This document shows positions 4,148 to 54,653 of a stretch of 64,000 nt of DNA, in pieces (position 1 is the stretch's first letter; each line of letters starts with the position of its first letter). The DNA is from Dictyoglomus turgidum DSM 6724 (GTDB taxonomy: Bacteria; Dictyoglomota; Dictyoglomia; Dictyoglomales; Dictyoglomaceae), in NCBI RefSeq assembly GCF_000021645.1, contig NC_011661.1, forward strand, positions 466,723 through 530,722, read 5' to 3'. The notes beneath the pieces were generated by a model. The model worked only from the letters and a program-made list of their open reading frames with translations. It was not told the DNA's origin and ran no database searches. A program made the position numbers and the translations under genes.

Positions 4148-7100
4148 GTTTCAATCCCTTATAGGTACGCTACAAACAAGTCTGGGACGTGGTCGAACTT
4201 GTTGAGATTTTGAAGTTTCAATCCCTTATAGGTACGCTACAAACAGAGTGCCCGGGGTAGGCTTCTACCCCGGGAGATCCTGTTTCAATCCCTTATAGGT
4301 ACGCTACAAACTGGATGGATACATGGGTAGGCCAAAAAAATCTAACACGGTTTCAATCCCTTATAGGTACGCTACAAACCTCCTCGCTTTTTCTTCTTCT
4401 TTCTGTTTAATTTTGGTTTCAATCCCTTATAGGTACGCTACAAACTTGTGAATTCTGAAATGTATGTGTTCTCATTTCGTTGTTTCAATCCCTTATAGGT
4501 ACGCTACAAACCAATAGCTACGTCATAAACATCTTGGTCTGTCGCTGGTTTCAATCCCTTATAGGTACGCTACAAACTTTAAAGGAATAACTGCTTCTGC
4601 TCCTTTTTCCCCGAGTTTCAATCCCTTATAGGTACGCTACAAACTGCTTTGCCAAGTGTCTTTTACAAGCATATCCCAAAGGTTTCAATCCCTTATAGGT
4701 ACGCTACAAACAGCCGAAAAAGAATTCGACGAATATTTGGTAGAATTCGTTTCAATCCCTTATAGGTACGCTACAAACGTATACCCAATCCTCTTCTATG
4801 TGGAATTCCACGAGAGTTTCAATCCCTTATAGGTACGCTACAAACATGATCCTGAAATATGGCAGGAGATCCTCAAGGCAATGTTTCAATCCCTTATAGG
4901 TACGCTACAAACGAATACAAAGAGAAAAAGATGAACAGGCGGTCCAAAGTTTCAATCCCTTATAGGTACGCTACAAACTGTTTGAATGATACTGCTGCGG
5001 CAGACTACCCTGGTTGTTTCAATCCCTTATAGGTACGCTACAAACGTTTCCAAAGAATTTTTGGAAGGGGAGTGAAGAGAAGTTTCAATCCCTTATAGGT
5101 ACGCTACAAACGATGTCTGAAACATTTGCTGAAATGGAAGCAGCGGCGTTTCAATCCCTTATAGGTACGCTACAAACACGGAGACTGGACGATATCGGAG
5201 GCGTAGTATGGAAGGTTTCAATCCCTTATAGGTACGCTACAAACTTCTCCTTTAGAAGTTTTAGGAGAAGTTAAAGATGTGTTTCAATCCCTTATAGGTA
5301 CGCTACAAACATAACGGTTAAGGACTTAGGAGACGGTACTTACAAGTGTTTCAATCCCTTATAGGTACGCTACAAACCTGATGAAGAATACGAAAAACTC
5401 GAGGAGGAATTTTGTTTCAATCCCTTATAGGTACGCTACAAACGATGTCTGAAACATTTGCTGAAATGGAAGCAGCGGCGTTTCAATCCCTTATAGGTAC
5501 GCTACAAACCTCCAACCTCTTGTACATAAGAAAATACGGATACAGTTTCAATCCCTTATAGGTACGCTACAAACTGATAAGACGATCGAAAAATCAACAG
5601 AGGCACTTACGTTTCAATCCCTTATAGGTACGCTACAAACATTGATTCCTCCAAATTTTCCATTCAAACAAAAGAGGGTTTCAATCCCTTATAGGTACGC
5701 TACAAACCTCCCTCCTTCACGTTTATCTTGGCCTCAAGCCTTTGTTTCAATCCCTTATAGGTACGCTACAAACGAAGCCCGTGCTGACTCACGAAGAGCA
5801 TCCATGGCTGTTTCAATCCCTTATAGGTACGCTACAAACAGATGGAGAGAAGCTGTTTAAGTACGGCGTATGGGAGTTTCAATCCCTTATAGGTACGCTA
5901 CAAACAGAGACAAGTACTGTTATTTTGAAAAGAGGGATAAGGTTTCAATCCCTTATAGGTACGCTACAAACCGTGAAAAAGAGCCAGTAGCCGATTTTGA
6001 GGTTGCTATAGTTTCAATCCCTTATAGGTACGCTACAAACCACTTGTGGAAATCACGAGCCAGGGAGTCTCACTCCTGTTTCAATCCCTTATAGGTACGC
6101 TACAAACTTGAGGAAGTTTCCACAAAGAATAAAATCGGCGTAAGTTTCAATCCCTTATAGGTACGCTACAAACAGATGGAGAGAAGCTGTTTAAGTACGG
6201 CGTATGGGAGTTTCAATCCCTTATAGGTACGCTACAAACAAATTAGGATGTGATAAACTTACATCTCCACTTGACAGTTTCAATCCCTTATAGGTACGCT
6301 ACAAACTCCAACTTCTTGTGTAGGCTCATTTATTTCCTCCAAGGTTTCAATCCCTTATAGGTACGCTACAAACGGCTTTTCCATTGGCTGGCGCTAAAGC
6401 AAGATGGAAGTTTCAATCCCTTATAGGTACGCTACAAACTTAAGAAATTCATCCACATTTTTATAATGTTGGTTGGTTTCAATCCCTTATAGGTACGCTA
6501 CAAACGTAATTGAGAAGAATCGTTATGGAGACAAGGGTGTCAGTTTCAATCCCTTATAGGTACGCTACAAACAGATTTTGTAAATATCAACGAACCTGAA
6601 AAAATTTTTGTTTCAATCCCTTATAGGTACGCTACAAACAAAGTAGCCCCCACAACTTTTTGGAAATATCCCAGGGTTTCAATCCCTTATAGGTACGCTA
6701 CAAACACTTCATCTCTATCGATTACCAAAATATTTCCTATTTCGTTTCAATCCCTTATAGGTACGCTACAAACTAGCCAAAATCCTCATAAAAATCTGGG
6801 AAATCTTCTTTGTTTCAATCCCTTATAGGTACGCTACAAACTACTTTTTATCAACCAGACCGAACCAAAACTACTCCTGTTTCAATCCCTTATAGGTACG
6901 CTACAAACTTTACTCATCCTCAAATTCATAGGAAAGGAGGTGAAGTTTCAATCCCTTATAGGTACGCTACAAACTTAAACTAAAAATCATCGGGCAAATC
7001 TGGCAAATTAGTTTCAATCCCTTATAGGTACGCTACAAACTCAATACCCACTGCCCCAATAGTTTGAAAACAGGAAAGTTTCAATCCCTTATAGGTACGC

Positions 7101-7702
7101 TACAAACGTAAATAAACCATCCAACCATGAATTACTAGAAAATGTTTCAATCCCTTATAGGTACGCTACAAACGCAAAGAAGAAAGGCATTTCTATTTCA
7201 AGGGTTGCTTGTTTCAATCCCTTATAGGTACGCTACAAACTTTCTATGTTATCAAATATACTCCTTGCCCTTCAGCTTGTTTCAATCCCTTATAGGTACG
7301 CTACAAACATGTTATATAAGGAGATAAAATGAACAACGATGAATGTTTCAATCCCTTATAGGTACGCTACAAACGAAACCTTACTTCAAGCCTGTCTCCA
7401 TAACGTCCATGTTTCAATCCCTTATAGGTACGCTACAAACTTTCTTTTAATTCGATATATAATTTCGCAAAATCTAAGTTTCAATCCCTTATAGGTACGC
7501 TACAAACGAAATTTTGGCTGTTTCTACAAGAAAAGTAATAAGAAGTTTCAATCCCTTATAGGTACGCTACAAACCTTCAATGGGATGCTTTTGTAGGTTT
7601 GCAAGTGCAAGTTTCAATCCCTTATAGGTACGCTACAAACCCGTAAAAAGGGCAAAAAAGCTACCGCTTAAAATTAACTACCCTTATAGGTACGCTACAA
7701 TT
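4148..7702 (-). CRISPR. CRISPR array, 53 intact 30-base repeats plus one degenerate
   Basis: On the plus strand each repeat begins GTTTCAATCC, continues CTTATAGGTA and ends CGCTACAAAC (30 bases). I counted 53 identical copies, starting at 4148, 4215, 4282 and so on to 7611, plus a degenerate copy at 7673-7702. Spacers are mostly 35-38 bases. Read on the minus strand the repeat ends ATTGAAAC, the usual 8-base handle of type I-B and type III systems, and a good promoter lies just right of the array. I therefore infer leftward transcription with the leader on the right. Two spacers occur twice (5112-5147 = 5444-5479; 5840-5875 = 6174-6209). No cas gene is in the window, so the processing and effector proteins must be elsewhere. 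Confidence 0.98.
7673..7702 (-). repeat. Degenerate terminal CRISPR repeat
   Basis: Only the central 20 bases (7681-7700) match the repeat exactly. The outer 8 bases that would form the ATTGAAAC handle, and the 2 bases at the leader junction, are altered. The spacer between it and the last intact repeat is about 32 bases, shorter than the others. If the array is transcribed leftward this is the leader-proximal repeat, where new spacers would normally be inserted. Confidence 0.85.
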
Positions 7703-49915: not shown

Positions 49916-50152
49916 ATGGATGTAAAACCTAACTATACCCTTGACGTGAGAGGAGAGGTTTGTCCAGTTCCTGATGTGGAAACCAAAAGAAAGCTGAAGA
50001 CAATGCAGTCTGGAGAGATTCTTGAGGTTCTTATTGATTATCCTCTCTCTAAGGAAAGGATTCCTCAAGGGATTAAAGAGGTAGGAGGAGAAGTTTTGGC
50101 TATTGAGGAAATAGGACCAAGCGAATGGAGAATTCTCATTAAGAAATTATAA
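49916..50152 (+). CDS. TusA-family sulfur carrier
   Basis: A 78-residue TusA/SirA-like protein. The CPxP motif (CPVP, Cys16) is the persulfide-bearing site, and DVRGEVCPVPDVETKRKLKTMQSGEILEV is the family core. TGGAGGTGAT precedes the ATG. TusA carries sulfur between sulfurtransferases. It opens an operon with a YeeE/YedE transporter and DsrEFH-like proteins, so it most likely accepts sulfur brought in by that transporter. Confidence 0.93.
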   Translation: MDVKPNYTLDVRGEVCPVPDVETKRKLKTMQSGEILEVLIDYPLSKERIPQGIKEVGGEVLAIEEIGPSEWRILIKKL

Positions 50153-50182
50153 GTAAAATTAACTAAAGGGGAGGGATTATAA

Positions 50183-51175
50183 ATGATTTGGCAAGGTTTA
50201 ATAGTGGGTATTCTTTTTGGCGTAGTTTTGCAGAGATCAAGGATGTGCTTTAACTCTGCTATAAGGGATATTAAGTTTAATAAAGACAATTACCTTGCTA
50301 AGATGGCTGCTGTAGCTATTCTTTTAGAAACCCTTGGTTTTCATCTTGTGGCGTCTTTGGGATGGATAAAGCTTAACCCTCTTCCCTTTATTCCATTGGC
50401 TCAAATTATAGGTGGATTTTTATTTGGAATGGGTATGGTTCTTGCAGGTGGATGCGCCAGTGGTGTGACTTATAGAATTGGAGAGGGATACATTACTGCA
50501 ATTTTAGCGGGTCTTTCCTTTGGAGTTACTGCCGCAGCAGTGAGAGGTGGGGTCTTGAATTTTGTTAATTCTTGGTTTGGATCTCCTATTACTGTAACTA
50601 TGCAAGATCCAGGTATATACAACGCAGTAGAAGGAAAGGTTAGTCCAACTATTGCAAATGTTTTTGGTATTAATCCCTGGATTGTAGCTATTATTTTTGC
50701 AATTCTTCTTGCTGTTTATATTTGGGGCACTAAGACTACCGAAAGGCAAGTTTCGGGATTAAACTGGCTTACAGGTGGAATTGCCCTTGGAGTTGTAGGG
50801 ATCCTTGGATATTTATCTCAAAAGACTTATGCCCTTGGGATTACTGGTGGATGGGTAAATCTTTTGAAAGGTACTGTAGCAGGAGTTCCCTATAATTGGA
50901 TTGGAATGGAGGTTCTTGGAATAATTATAGGTGCATTTATATCTGCTGTTGCTTCTAAGGAATTTAAATTAAGAGTTCCCAAGGATCCAAAGACATATTT
51001 ACAAGTTATTCTTGGTGGGATCTTGATGGGTTTTGGAGCAGGGGTTGCTGCTGGTTGTAATATAGGTCATATATTATCTGGACTCCCCCATCTTGCTTTG
51101 AGTTCTATCCTTGCTACAATCTTTTTTGTACTTGGTAATTGGTTCATGTATTGGTATTTATATGCAAGAAAATAG
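50183..51175 (+). CDS. YeeE/YedE (TsuA-type) sulfur-compound transporter
   Basis: A 330-residue membrane protein. Cys22 (RSRMCFNSA), Cys91 (AGGCASGVTYRIGEG) and Cys292 (AAGCNIGHILSGLPH) match the conserved cysteines of the TsuA thiosulfate transporter family, whose structure is known. About nine hydrophobic segments. It probably brings thiosulfate or a similar sulfur species to the TusA protein encoded just upstream. Selenium use by relatives (YedE) is an alternative; no selenium genes are nearby. Confidence 0.92.
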   Translation: MIWQGLIVGILFGVVLQRSRMCFNSAIRDIKFNKDNYLAKMAAVAILLETLGFHLVASLGWIKLNPLPFIPLAQIIGGFLFGMGMVLAGGCASGVTYRIGEGYITAILAGLSFGVTAAAVRGGVLNFVNSWFGSPITVTMQDPGIYNAVEGKVSPTIANVFGINPWIVAIIFAILLAVYIWGTKTTERQVSGLNWLTGGIALGVVGILGYLSQKTYALGITGGWVNLLKGTVAGVPYNWIGMEVLGIIIGAFISAVASKEFKLRVPKDPKTYLQVILGGILMGFGAGVAAGCNIGHILSGLPHLALSSILATIFFVLGNWFMYWYLYARK

Positions 51176-51187
51176 GAGGTTAAGATT

Positions 51188-51541
51188 ATGTATATTGTTA
51201 TTCAAGTAAATGTTCCACCTTATACCTATGAGGATTTGGATACAGCTATTCATCTTGCAGAAGCAGCACTTAAAAGGGGTCATAAAGTATCCATCTTCTT
51301 GTTTGCCGATTCAGTGCTTTCGATAAACTCAAAGGTAAAACCTTTAAGGGTTGATAGGAATATTCCTTTGAAGATGAAAGAACTTTCTGAAAAGGGAGTT
51401 GAAATACATATTTGTGGCCTTTGTGCTGAGTATAGAGGTATTAGTTCTGAGAATGCTGTAGAAGGTCCAAAATTCTCTGGTGTTCCAGAGATGGCTTCTT
51501 TAATATTTAATGCAGACAGATATGTAAACTTGATGCCGTAA
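51188..51541 (+). CDS. DsrE/TusD-family sulfur-relay protein
   Basis: A 117-residue DsrE fold protein. IQVNVPPYTYEDLDTAIHLAEAALKRGHKVSIFLFADSV is the usual opening and HICGLCAEYRGIS carries Cys76 and Cys79, near the DsrE/TusD active cysteine. In TusBCD or DsrEFH complexes this subunit takes persulfide sulfur from TusA. Next to DsrF- and DsrH-like genes. Confidence 0.87.
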   Translation: MYIVIQVNVPPYTYEDLDTAIHLAEAALKRGHKVSIFLFADSVLSINSKVKPLRVDRNIPLKMKELSEKGVEIHICGLCAEYRGISSENAVEGPKFSGVPEMASLIFNADRYVNLMP

Positions 51542-51555
51542 GGGAGGAAATATTT

Positions 51556-51915
51556 ATGAAAAGAGTTCTCTTTGTAGTTTACCAGAGTCCAGCTGGATCT
51601 ATATGGGTAAATGAGGCACTAAGAAGTGCCTTTGGTATGTATGGAGAAGATCTGGAGCCTTCTATTCTCTTTATGGAAGATGCAGTGGTAGCAGTAAATA
51701 AAAATACCCATCCTGAAAATTTAGGGTGTCTCTCTTTGAGTATGTCCTTTAAATATCTTGAAAGATATGGAACTCCAATTTATGTAGTGAAAGAAGATTT
51801 GGAAAAGAGAAAAATAAAAGAAGAAGATGTTGAGCCCACATGGAAAGCAAAGATTATATCTCAGAATGAAGTTTCAGAATTTATCCATTCCTTTGATAGG
51901 GTAATAATCTTCTAA
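51556..51915 (+). CDS. DsrF/TusC-family sulfur-relay protein
   Basis: A 119-residue protein with the DsrF/TusC pattern VVYQSPAGSIWVNEALRSAFGMYGED and ILFMEDAVVAVNKNTHPEN. It has no conserved catalytic Cys and would be a structural subunit of a DsrEFH-like complex. Coupled by 14-15-base gaps to its neighbours. Ends VIIF. Confidence 0.82.
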   Translation: MKRVLFVVYQSPAGSIWVNEALRSAFGMYGEDLEPSILFMEDAVVAVNKNTHPENLGCLSLSMSFKYLERYGTPIYVVKEDLEKRKIKEEDVEPTWKAKIISQNEVSEFIHSFDRVIIF

Positions 51916-51929
51916 AGGGGTGAAAAGAT

Positions 51930-52208
51930 ATGGCATTAATAATTATAAAGAAAAGTCCAAGGGAAGAAATTAGTAAAAGAATTATAGAACTTGCAGTAGA
52001 GGGAGACACTATTCTTTTTGTTCAGGATGGGGTTTTATATGCTATAGATGAGACTACAAAAGAGTTTATTAAAAGTGGAGTTTCAGTTTTTGCTTTAAAA
52101 GAGGATTTAGAAGCAAGGGGATATTCTGAGAGTTTAAGCCTTTTCCCTTGTATAGACTATGAAGGATGGGTAGAATTAATAGAAAAGAATGAAAAAATAA
52201 TTTCGTAG
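51930..52208 (+). CDS. DsrH/TusB-family sulfur-relay protein
   Basis: A 92-residue protein with the DsrH/TusB opening ALIIIKKSPREEISKRI, EGDTILFVQDGVLYAI and ALKEDLEARGY. Together with the two preceding genes it completes a DsrEFH-like set. Cys134-type residues of other DsrH proteins are not obvious; a lone Cys sits late in the sequence (SLFPCIDYEG). Confidence 0.85.
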   Translation: MALIIIKKSPREEISKRIIELAVEGDTILFVQDGVLYAIDETTKEFIKSGVSVFALKEDLEARGYSESLSLFPCIDYEGWVELIEKNEKIIS

Positions 52209-52222
52209 GAGGATTAAAGGGG

Positions 52223-53614
52223 ATGGAAAAGTTTGATGTGATATTTTTAGGGGCAGGATCTGGAGGTTATGTGGGAGCTATAAGGGCAGCAGACTTAGGG
52301 AAAAAGGTATGTATCATTGAGGCAAGGGAGCTTGGTGGGACTTGTCTGAATAGAGGTTGTATTCCTACTAAGGCTCTTCTAAAGAGTGCAGAGGTATTTC
52401 GTACCGTAAAGGAAGCAAAAACTTTTGGTGTAAATGTAGACTCTTATTCTTTTGATGTAAATGGTATCTACTCTTGGAAGGAAAATGTAGTAAAAAAACT
52501 TGTATCAGGGGTTGAATACTTGTTAAAGTCAAGAAAAGTAGTAATAAAAAAGGGAAGAGGTAGAATAATTGACAATGAAACAGTAGAAATAGAAACTTCC
52601 GAAGGTAAAGAAATAGTTCAAGGAGAAAATATTGTAATTGCTACAGGCTCAGAACCAGCTATGATTCCTACCTTTAAAATTGATGGAAAAAATGTCTTAA
52701 CTTCTGATGATGCTTTGACTCTTGGAGAAATACCTAAGGATATAGTAATCATAGGAGCAGGTGCTATTGGTATTGAATTTGCAACCTTTTATAGTACTTT
52801 TGGTACTAAGGTTACCATAGTAGAAATGATGCCTCAAGTAGTTCCAACTTTGAAGGATAAAAAAGTAGCAAATTACCTTCAGAGAATATTAAACAAAAAA
52901 GGTATTGAGGTTAAGGTAGGAGCAAAAATAGAAAGTGTGGAAGTAAAAGATGGAAAAGTTTATTCTACTTTATCTACAGGAGAAGTTTTGGAGAGCGAAA
53001 AGGTTTTAGTTTCCATAGGAAGAAAATTAAATTCAGACAATATAGGGCTTGAAAACATAGGAGTTAATGTGGATAGGGGAAGAATAGTAGTGGATGAATA
53101 TCTAAGGACAAATGTTAAAAATGTATATGCTATAGGTGATGTTATAGGTGGACTTTTGCTTGCTCACAAGGCAATGAAGGAAGGAGAAGTAGTAGCAGAG
53201 ATCATTGCAGGAGAAAATAAAAAGATGGATTATAGAGTAGTACCCTGGGCCATATTCTCATCTCCAGAAATTGCAGCCTGTGGTCTTACCGAGGAAGAGG
53301 CAAAAGAACAAGGTATAGATGTAATAACAGGAGAATTTCCATTTTCTGCTAATGGAAAAGCAGTATCCATGAATGCTACCGATGGTTTTGTAAAGGTGGT
53401 TGCAAGAAAAGAAGATAAAGTAATAATAGGAGCTCAAATTATAGGCCCTGAGGCTTCAGTAATGATCGCTGAACTTGCCCTTGCTATACAAAATAATCTG
53501 ACCCTTGATGATGTAGCGGATACTATTCATACTCATCCCACACTACCCGAAGCTATAATGGAGGCTGTAAAAGTGCCCCTTGGGAGTGTGGTACATATTT
53601 ACTTAAGGAGATAA
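52223..53614 (+). CDS. lpd: Dihydrolipoamide dehydrogenase-type flavoprotein
   Basis: A 463-residue class I disulfide oxidoreductase. FAD-binding GAGSGGYVGAIRAADLG (10-26), the redox disulfide GGTCLNRGCIP (Cys41, Cys46), NAD-binding GAGAIGIEFATFY and the C-terminal HTHPTLPEAIMEA (catalytic His/Glu) are all present. Sits last in the TusA-DsrEFH operon, with no 2-oxoacid dehydrogenase gene near. In other sulfur oxidisers and sHdr loci similar flavoproteins act on lipoate-bound sulfur, so a role in the relay is plausible. Confidence 0.93.
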   Translation: MEKFDVIFLGAGSGGYVGAIRAADLGKKVCIIEARELGGTCLNRGCIPTKALLKSAEVFRTVKEAKTFGVNVDSYSFDVNGIYSWKENVVKKLVSGVEYLLKSRKVVIKKGRGRIIDNETVEIETSEGKEIVQGENIVIATGSEPAMIPTFKIDGKNVLTSDDALTLGEIPKDIVIIGAGAIGIEFATFYSTFGTKVTIVEMMPQVVPTLKDKKVANYLQRILNKKGIEVKVGAKIESVEVKDGKVYSTLSTGEVLESEKVLVSIGRKLNSDNIGLENIGVNVDRGRIVVDEYLRTNVKNVYAIGDVIGGLLLAHKAMKEGEVVAEIIAGENKKMDYRVVPWAIFSSPEIAACGLTEEEAKEQGIDVITGEFPFSANGKAVSMNATDGFVKVVARKEDKVIIGAQIIGPEASVMIAELALAIQNNLTLDDVADTIHTHPTLPEAIMEAVKVPLGSVVHIYLRR

Positions 53615-53628
53615 TTTTAAAAATTTTT

Positions 53629-53699
53629 TTTCGGACCCCTTGACAATTTTTAAAGTTGTGTTAAAATTATAATTGCCACAGGCATCAAGGGGTCCGAAA
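53629..53699 (+). promoter_or_regulatory. Strong promoter inside a 15-base inverted repeat
   Basis: TTTCGGACCCCTTGA (53629-53643) and its exact complement TCAAGGGGTCCGAAA (53685-53699) are 41 bases apart. Between them lies a promoter: TTGACA (53640-53645), 16 bases, TAAAAT (53662-53667). The left arm contains most of the -35 box and the right arm the 5' part of the RNA. Only transcripts entering from lpd could form the full hairpin. Confidence 0.75.
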
Positions 53700-53917
53700 G
53701 GCTCCTGAGTGCACTTGGCTGGGACTAAGTAAGTCCCGGAGGCTCAAGGAAAGGTAAGGGGTAAAAACCCTTACTAAGTACTTGAGATCTAGAAAGTAAC
53801 AGGGGTATTGATAAAGCTCGGTACCTCTGTGAAATCTGGAAGAATCTGGGATGAAAGGTCTCAGAGGGTGCAAGGGAGAGGCTGAGTAGGGTCCGTTGAG
53901 CCTGTGGCACCTTTTTT
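53675..53917 (+). ncRNA. Structured non-coding RNA, about 240 nt, family not assigned
   Basis: The transcript would start near 53675. Its ends pair: GCCACAGGC (53675-53683) with GCCTGTGGC (53900-53908), extended by TCAA/TTGA, and a T-run (53912-53917) follows directly, so the closing helix also acts as terminator. Inside I find GGGACT/AGTCCC, CTCAAG/CTTGAG around GTAAGGG/CCCTTAC, CAGGGGTA/TACCTCTG and CTGGGA/TCTCAG hairpins. No open frame spans it. It does not show the conserved cores of SRP RNA, RNase P RNA or tmRNA. 6S RNA or a lineage-specific regulatory RNA are the remaining ideas. Confidence 0.75.
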
Positions 53918-54254
53918 ATTGGGAACTTTTGAAATGGATATTATCATATCTTTGGGAAGAAGGGACTTCTTTTTTGTATGCACTCTCTGAGGAGAGAATA
54001 TTTCTATAGAGGGGAAAGGAATTAAAATTTCTCAATCTCAGCCTATTTTCCTTTATGATTGCCAAAATATCAACCTTTTTTATAAATTCTTGCTCTTAAT
54101 GTAGAGATGAGTGTATTGCCTTGACAGGAATTACTAATTGGGAGAGGTTTTGTGAAAAGGTCATTATAGAAAATTGTATAATGGAGACAAGGTCAGCAGG
54201 GATTAGTTCTTATGATAAAATTGATGATATAGATTTTCAGATCCTTGTACATGT
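53918..54254. other. Gene-free stretch with a small hairpin and an old coding fragment
   Basis: AAGAAG/CTTCTT (53957-53971) followed by T residues is a weak terminator. An open frame from 54100 to the TGA at 54256-54258 (LTGITNWERFCEKVIIENC ... DIDFQILVHV) has no good start or ribosome site; its TGA overlaps the ATG of the next gene in the ATGA manner. It looks like the end of a lost, once coupled upstream gene. Confidence 0.4.
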
Positions 54255-54653
54255 ATGATTAATTATCTTTTTTGGATTATTTCATCAGGGATAACGATAT
54301 ATTTACTCCTCTACTCAAGAGGTTTTTATCTAAAGGTCTTTTCTTTTCTAATGCGGGATTTTTATCTTATAAATGTGATAGATAAGTTTTTATTTATTGC
54401 TCTTTCTTTTATTGCTCTTGGTTTTATTGTTTATCTTGAGAGTTTTTATAGAAAGAATAAGAAAGTTTTTTATAAGTTCTTGCTTATAACGGGGATCCAG
54501 TTAATAATTTTGTTTGTTTTTCAATTTACCCCTTATTTACTCTTTGGAATAGTGCTGTCTTATAAGGAAATTTTCTTTTTGATATTGGAAATAATTCTTG
54601 GCGGATTTTTTATAGGAATTTATATCTCTAATCAACGATACCGCATTTTATAG
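54255..54653 (+). CDS. Hypothetical small membrane protein (four helices)
   Basis: A 132-residue protein with four hydrophobic segments (about residues 3-24, 43-62, 72-97 and 104-126). No family recognised. No clear ribosome site; the start overlaps the end of an upstream coding relic, suggesting it was once translated by coupling. It may still be expressed weakly. Function unknown. Confidence 0.55.
   Translation: MINYLFWIISSGITIYLLLYSRGFYLKVFSFLMRDFYLINVIDKFLFIALSFIALGFIVYLESFYRKNKKVFYKFLLITGIQLIILFVFQFTPYLLFGIVLSYKEIFFLILEIILGGFFIGIYISNQRYRIL

Follow-up and report, generated by a model that had tools for sequence, protein, structure and literature searches.

The structured RNA encoded at positions 53674-53909 on the forward strand of the window, here the whole 64,000-nucleotide stretch of Dictyoglomus turgidum DSM 6724 DNA that was analysed, is with virtual certainty a Dictyoglomi-1 RNA. 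An Rfam scan matched this segment to RF01703 ("Dictyoglomi-1") over model positions 1-236, with 245.5 bits (E-value 1.7e-56) for a gathering cut-off of 150 bits. The match is full-length, the consensus structure and the phylum are the same, and no essential difference separates the locus from the catalogued family. The locus is thus a real feature and not a new class, contrary to one of the proposals of the preliminary description, in which novelty was to be given up if Rfam already held the family; the RF01703 match rules this proposal out. Weinberg et al. 2010 (PMC2864571) introduced Dictyoglomi-1, earlier named dct-1, among their candidate noncoding RNAs and placed it in Dictyoglomi; the main text of that paper assigns it no function. 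A full-text search of one literature collection for the name Dictyoglomi-1 returned this paper alone, and no RNA-seq literature on Dictyoglomus was found among the matches listed.

Given the 2010 description of the family and its Rfam entry, the locus is no discovery and has low interest as such; its interest is moderate as that of an orphan structured RNA, strongly conserved, for which a testable structural idea can be put forward. Two gains were made here: explanations by housekeeping RNAs are largely excluded, and a recurring motif reported earlier has received a concrete, testable structural reading as part of four putative bulged-G modules. This bulged-G reading, an inverted repeat over the promoter, a 181-nt form in a second genus and the two-copy status are absent from the Rfam match and from the 2010 main text.

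Fold, promoter and probable terminator

The minimum free energy of the RNA is -117 kcal/mol, compared with -70.5 +/- 4.5 in shuffled sequences, and 0 of 200 shuffles folded as well (Table 1). Its G+C content is 51%, against 34% for the whole window, and ranks top among the 236-nt stretches sampled in the window. The long-range pairing of the two ends described earlier was recovered, across 20 bp with one A bulge and one G-G mismatch, but the four internal hairpins were replaced by a different architecture, that of RF01703: a long interrupted rod leading to a three-way junction with two hairpins, in which internal loops, four in number, are the recurrent features. In seven full-length sequences, standard pairs were found in 97.3% of cells, against 28.8-50.1% with slid partners, and two-sided changes affected 20 base pairs, a number reached in none of 500 shuffles (8.3 +/- 1.9), which backs the fold. 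The terminal stem is neither supported nor refuted by covariation, because it is almost invariant; it is supported by conservation, energy and its presence in the short form. Its near-invariance, which would suit protein docking, could also have its cause in RNA-RNA assembly or in a constraint at the DNA level.

The promoter (TTGACA-16-TAAAAT) has 11 of the 12 consensus bases and ends 6 nt upstream of the RNA; the hexamers, the 16-nt spacing and a TGCC start recur in all 7 Dictyoglomaceae genomes. On the other side, a T-run begins 2 nt past the closing helix, and a T-run occurs at most about 10 nt downstream in every copy with an assembled 3' end. This near-consensus promoter, the strong fold and the T-run agree with the earlier view of a stand-alone structured RNA gene having a strong promoter and a terminator, with a U-run after the closing helix.

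An inverted repeat extends over the promoter. If transcription ran through from the gene upstream, the upstream arm of the repeat would, by prediction, sequester the terminal stem's 5' strand and so open the native closing helix. The 15-nt repeat also occurs at the orthologous locus of another genome (G002) and not elsewhere, and a 9-nt form was found at copy b. A general switch based on this repeat was rejected as a family feature because the repeat is confined to the lpd locus of two genomes. There it might protect against read-through RNA, or be simply a local duplication.

Table 1. Features of the Dictyoglomi-1 locus and its upstream region (window positions)
Feature	Positions	Strand	Remarks
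Sulfur-transfer cluster	49916-53614		TusA, Sulf_transp (YeeE-like), DsrE, DsrE, DsrH, dihydrolipoyl-dehydrogenase-like protein
Upstream arm TTTCGGACCCCTTGA	53629-53643	+	Perfect 15-nt inverted repeat of 53685-53699; overlaps -35 box
-35 hexamer TTGACA	53640-53645	+	TTGACA in full-length-type copies; TTGATT in short 181-nt copies
-10 hexamer TAAAAT	53662-53667	+	16-nt spacer; TATAAT in short-form copies
Dictyoglomi-1 RNA (RF01703), full length	53674-53909	+	245.5 bits; fold z -10.4; covariation
Terminal stem, 5' strand UGCCACAGGC-A-UCAA-G-GGGUCC	53674-53695	+	Nearly unchanged in all copies, including the 181-nt form
Putative bulged-G loop 1, GAA strand (GAAA)	53696-53699	+	Opposite 53884-53888
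Putative bulged-G loop 2, AGUA strand (AAGUAA)	53727-53732	+	Overlaps first ACTAAGTA
Putative bulged-G loop 3, GAA strand (GAAA)	53749-53752	+	
Putative bulged-G loop 3, AGUA strand (AAGUA)	53776-53780	+	Inside second ACTAAGTA
Putative bulged-G loop 4, AGUA strand (AAGUA)	53794-53798	+	
Putative bulged-G loop 4, GAA strand (GAAA)	53831-53834	+	
Putative bulged-G loop 2, GAA strand (GAAA)	53853-53856	+	
Putative bulged-G loop 1, AGUA strand (GAGUA)	53884-53888	+	
Terminal stem, 3' strand GGGUCCGUUGAGCCUGUGGCA	53889-53909	+	Near-invariant
T-run, probable terminator	53912-53917	+	Directly after closing helix; long closing stem as hairpin

Bulged-G signature of the internal loops

At the sequence level, the bulged-G (sarcin-ricin / loop E) module is marked by GAA facing AGUA. 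Judged by this signature, the four internal loops of Dictyoglomi-1 are putative modules of this type: in all four loops of the present copy, GAAA faces (A/G)AGUA in register with flanking Watson-Crick pairs, the register being less exact in loop 2 because this copy has one extra A there. The motif ACTAAGTA, noticed earlier as occurring twice, lies exactly at 53724 and 53773, and this repetition is explained: the first copy contains the AGUA strand of loop 2, the second that of loop 3. Among 500 dinucleotide shuffles of Dictyoglomi-1, 496 were devoid of any loop of this type and 4 had one. The number of such loops differs among sequences, with four here, two to three in the other full-length copies and one in the 181-nt form; the 181-nt form has an altered loop 3, and loop 1 is poorly kept beyond the two closest species. 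In 23S and 5S rRNA, bulged-G (sarcin-ricin, loop E) modules likewise place AGUA opposite GAA beside a regular helix, whereas in Dictyoglomi-1 this sequence signature is repeated four times in one 236-nt non-ribosomal RNA.

Copies, distribution and gene neighbourhood

A search of 386 genomes returned matches in the Dictyoglomaceae only. By combining the family search with the promoter and start pattern, Dictyoglomi-1 was detected in all 7 genomes of this family that were searched, one of them with a contig-end fragment, and in none of the 379 others spread over the domain, under strict filters with which weak matches are lost. Four genomes have two copies, and a single copy was found in G001, G003 and G006 (draft assemblies). 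In the genome of the window (G000), the second copy is located at C1:100057-100291 on the reverse strand and is 73% identical. One genome (G004) has the shortened form of 181 nt without the second hairpin, which at about 54% identity keeps the terminal stem unchanged, down to its A bulge, G-G mismatch and tandem G-U. With 61-62 bits, these short copies fall below the Rfam cut-off, and the RF01703 model could be widened to include a form that it misses although the terminal stem is whole. The two 181-nt copies (L010, 264-444; L007, 1501-1681) are 98% identical to each other.

Beyond cellular genomes, no Dictyoglomi-1 match was obtained in the phage and plasmid collections. A 17-nt core pattern was shared with six viral contigs, but no RNA was found in them by our own model (6 of 6 checked) or by Rfam in the five scanned, and these pattern matches look like chance. 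Separately, two pattern hits with one mismatch (L116 and L120) do not extend into the RNA and resemble coding sequence.

Upstream of the RNA, the window contains a compact sulfur-transfer cluster (Table 1). The lpd gene adjoining the RNA shares 90% identity with an lpd gene of a Dictyoglomus metagenome-assembled genome, and the RNA has its own promoter. Synteny with lpd is not general, since two other Dictyoglomus-like lpd contigs (L012 and L025) have no RNA near lpd; a third (L011) is uninformative because it ends 40 bases after lpd. Downstream, positions 53896-54255 contain the decayed, fragmented remnant of a gene for an HD-domain protein, which in G002 is intact and directly follows the RNA (L095:8228-8704). 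Elsewhere, the downstream gene is, as judged from sequence, glycoside-hydrolase-like (copy b) or DUF362-like (G006). Since the neighbouring genes differ between loci and the promoter is kept, a trans-acting RNA is favoured over a leader, and Dictyoglomi-1 probably acts in trans. That the RNA serves the downstream gene as a riboswitch or another cis-regulatory leader is highly improbable: a question mark stands under cis-regulatory and switch in the 2010 table (PMC2864571), and a T-run follows the closing stem, but the downstream genes vary as described, the T-run is preceded by the near-invariant closing stem itself, and no alternative antiterminator was seen. At some distance from the RNA, the window also contains a CRISPR array (4148-7640) with 53 repeats matching CRISPR-DR2 (RF01315).

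Possible role and housekeeping RNAs

Models of 6S, SRP, RNase P and tmRNA gave no match over 53300-54200 even at E<=10, which confirms the earlier statement that the cores of SRP RNA, RNase P RNA, tmRNA and riboswitches are lacking. SRP RNA, tmRNA and RNase P RNA were each matched elsewhere in the same genome, as was a separate 6S RNA (RF00013; C1:1039815-1039990, 48 bits, cut-off 46.4), and housekeeping identities are largely excluded for this reason. Dictyoglomi-1 is similar to 6S RNA in size, paired ends and organization as a stand-alone gene, but has no large single-stranded central bubble in its fold, which contains only small internal loops and the three-way junction. The idea of a divergent 6S RNA, also raised in the preliminary description, therefore finds no support. 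Two 6S RNAs are present in some bacteria, and the length, the paired ends and the own promoter would suit a second one serving as an RNA polymerase decoy; with the genome's 6S match lying elsewhere, and neither an open bubble nor an RF00013 match at the locus, we regard this as very unlikely.

Conservation peaks in the helices and in the GAA/AGUA internal loops, and hairpin-loop sequences drift, a pattern that favours a protein-bound structural RNA over a base-pairing regulator. An antisense regulator of mRNAs, which the independent promoter and terminator would recall, as in many trans-acting small RNAs, is accordingly the least probable of the readings weighed here, since almost every base belongs to a helix or a structured loop, no conserved single-stranded seed was found and hairpin loops vary between copies. 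As a tentative reading, which we prefer without giving it even confidence, Dictyoglomi-1 would be a scaffold or a decoy. The RNA, one of two genomic copies, would be transcribed from its own promoter, ended by the closing stem plus the U-run, and would act in trans as a structural protein-binding RNA with the shape of a rigid forked rod. One or more proteins might then dock at the near-invariant terminal stem and the repeated bulged-G modules, in the setting of a lineage-specific ribonucleoprotein or of a decoy.

The main rival to this protein-bound scaffold or decoy is self-assembly, in which the rod would dock onto its own copies through its bulged-G modules, with the near-invariant stem as the RNA-RNA interface. 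Certain large ornate RNAs of bacteria and phages have been described as docking onto themselves, tertiary contacts are commonly built on bulged-G modules, and the high G+C content of a rigid rod, as well as the two copies per genome, would fit. Yet neither a kissing loop nor a loop-receptor pair was found to be conserved, hairpin loops differ between copies and the 181-nt form is without one hairpin arm, which makes self-assembly unlikely. A somewhat less doubtful idea, although still an improbable one, is that of a lineage-specific housekeeping RNA with an unprecedented mechanism, in which the rod would be a platform that offers several bulged-G modules, one after another, to proteins or to its own copies, in an RNA that is found across the Dictyoglomaceae and usually in two copies per genome.
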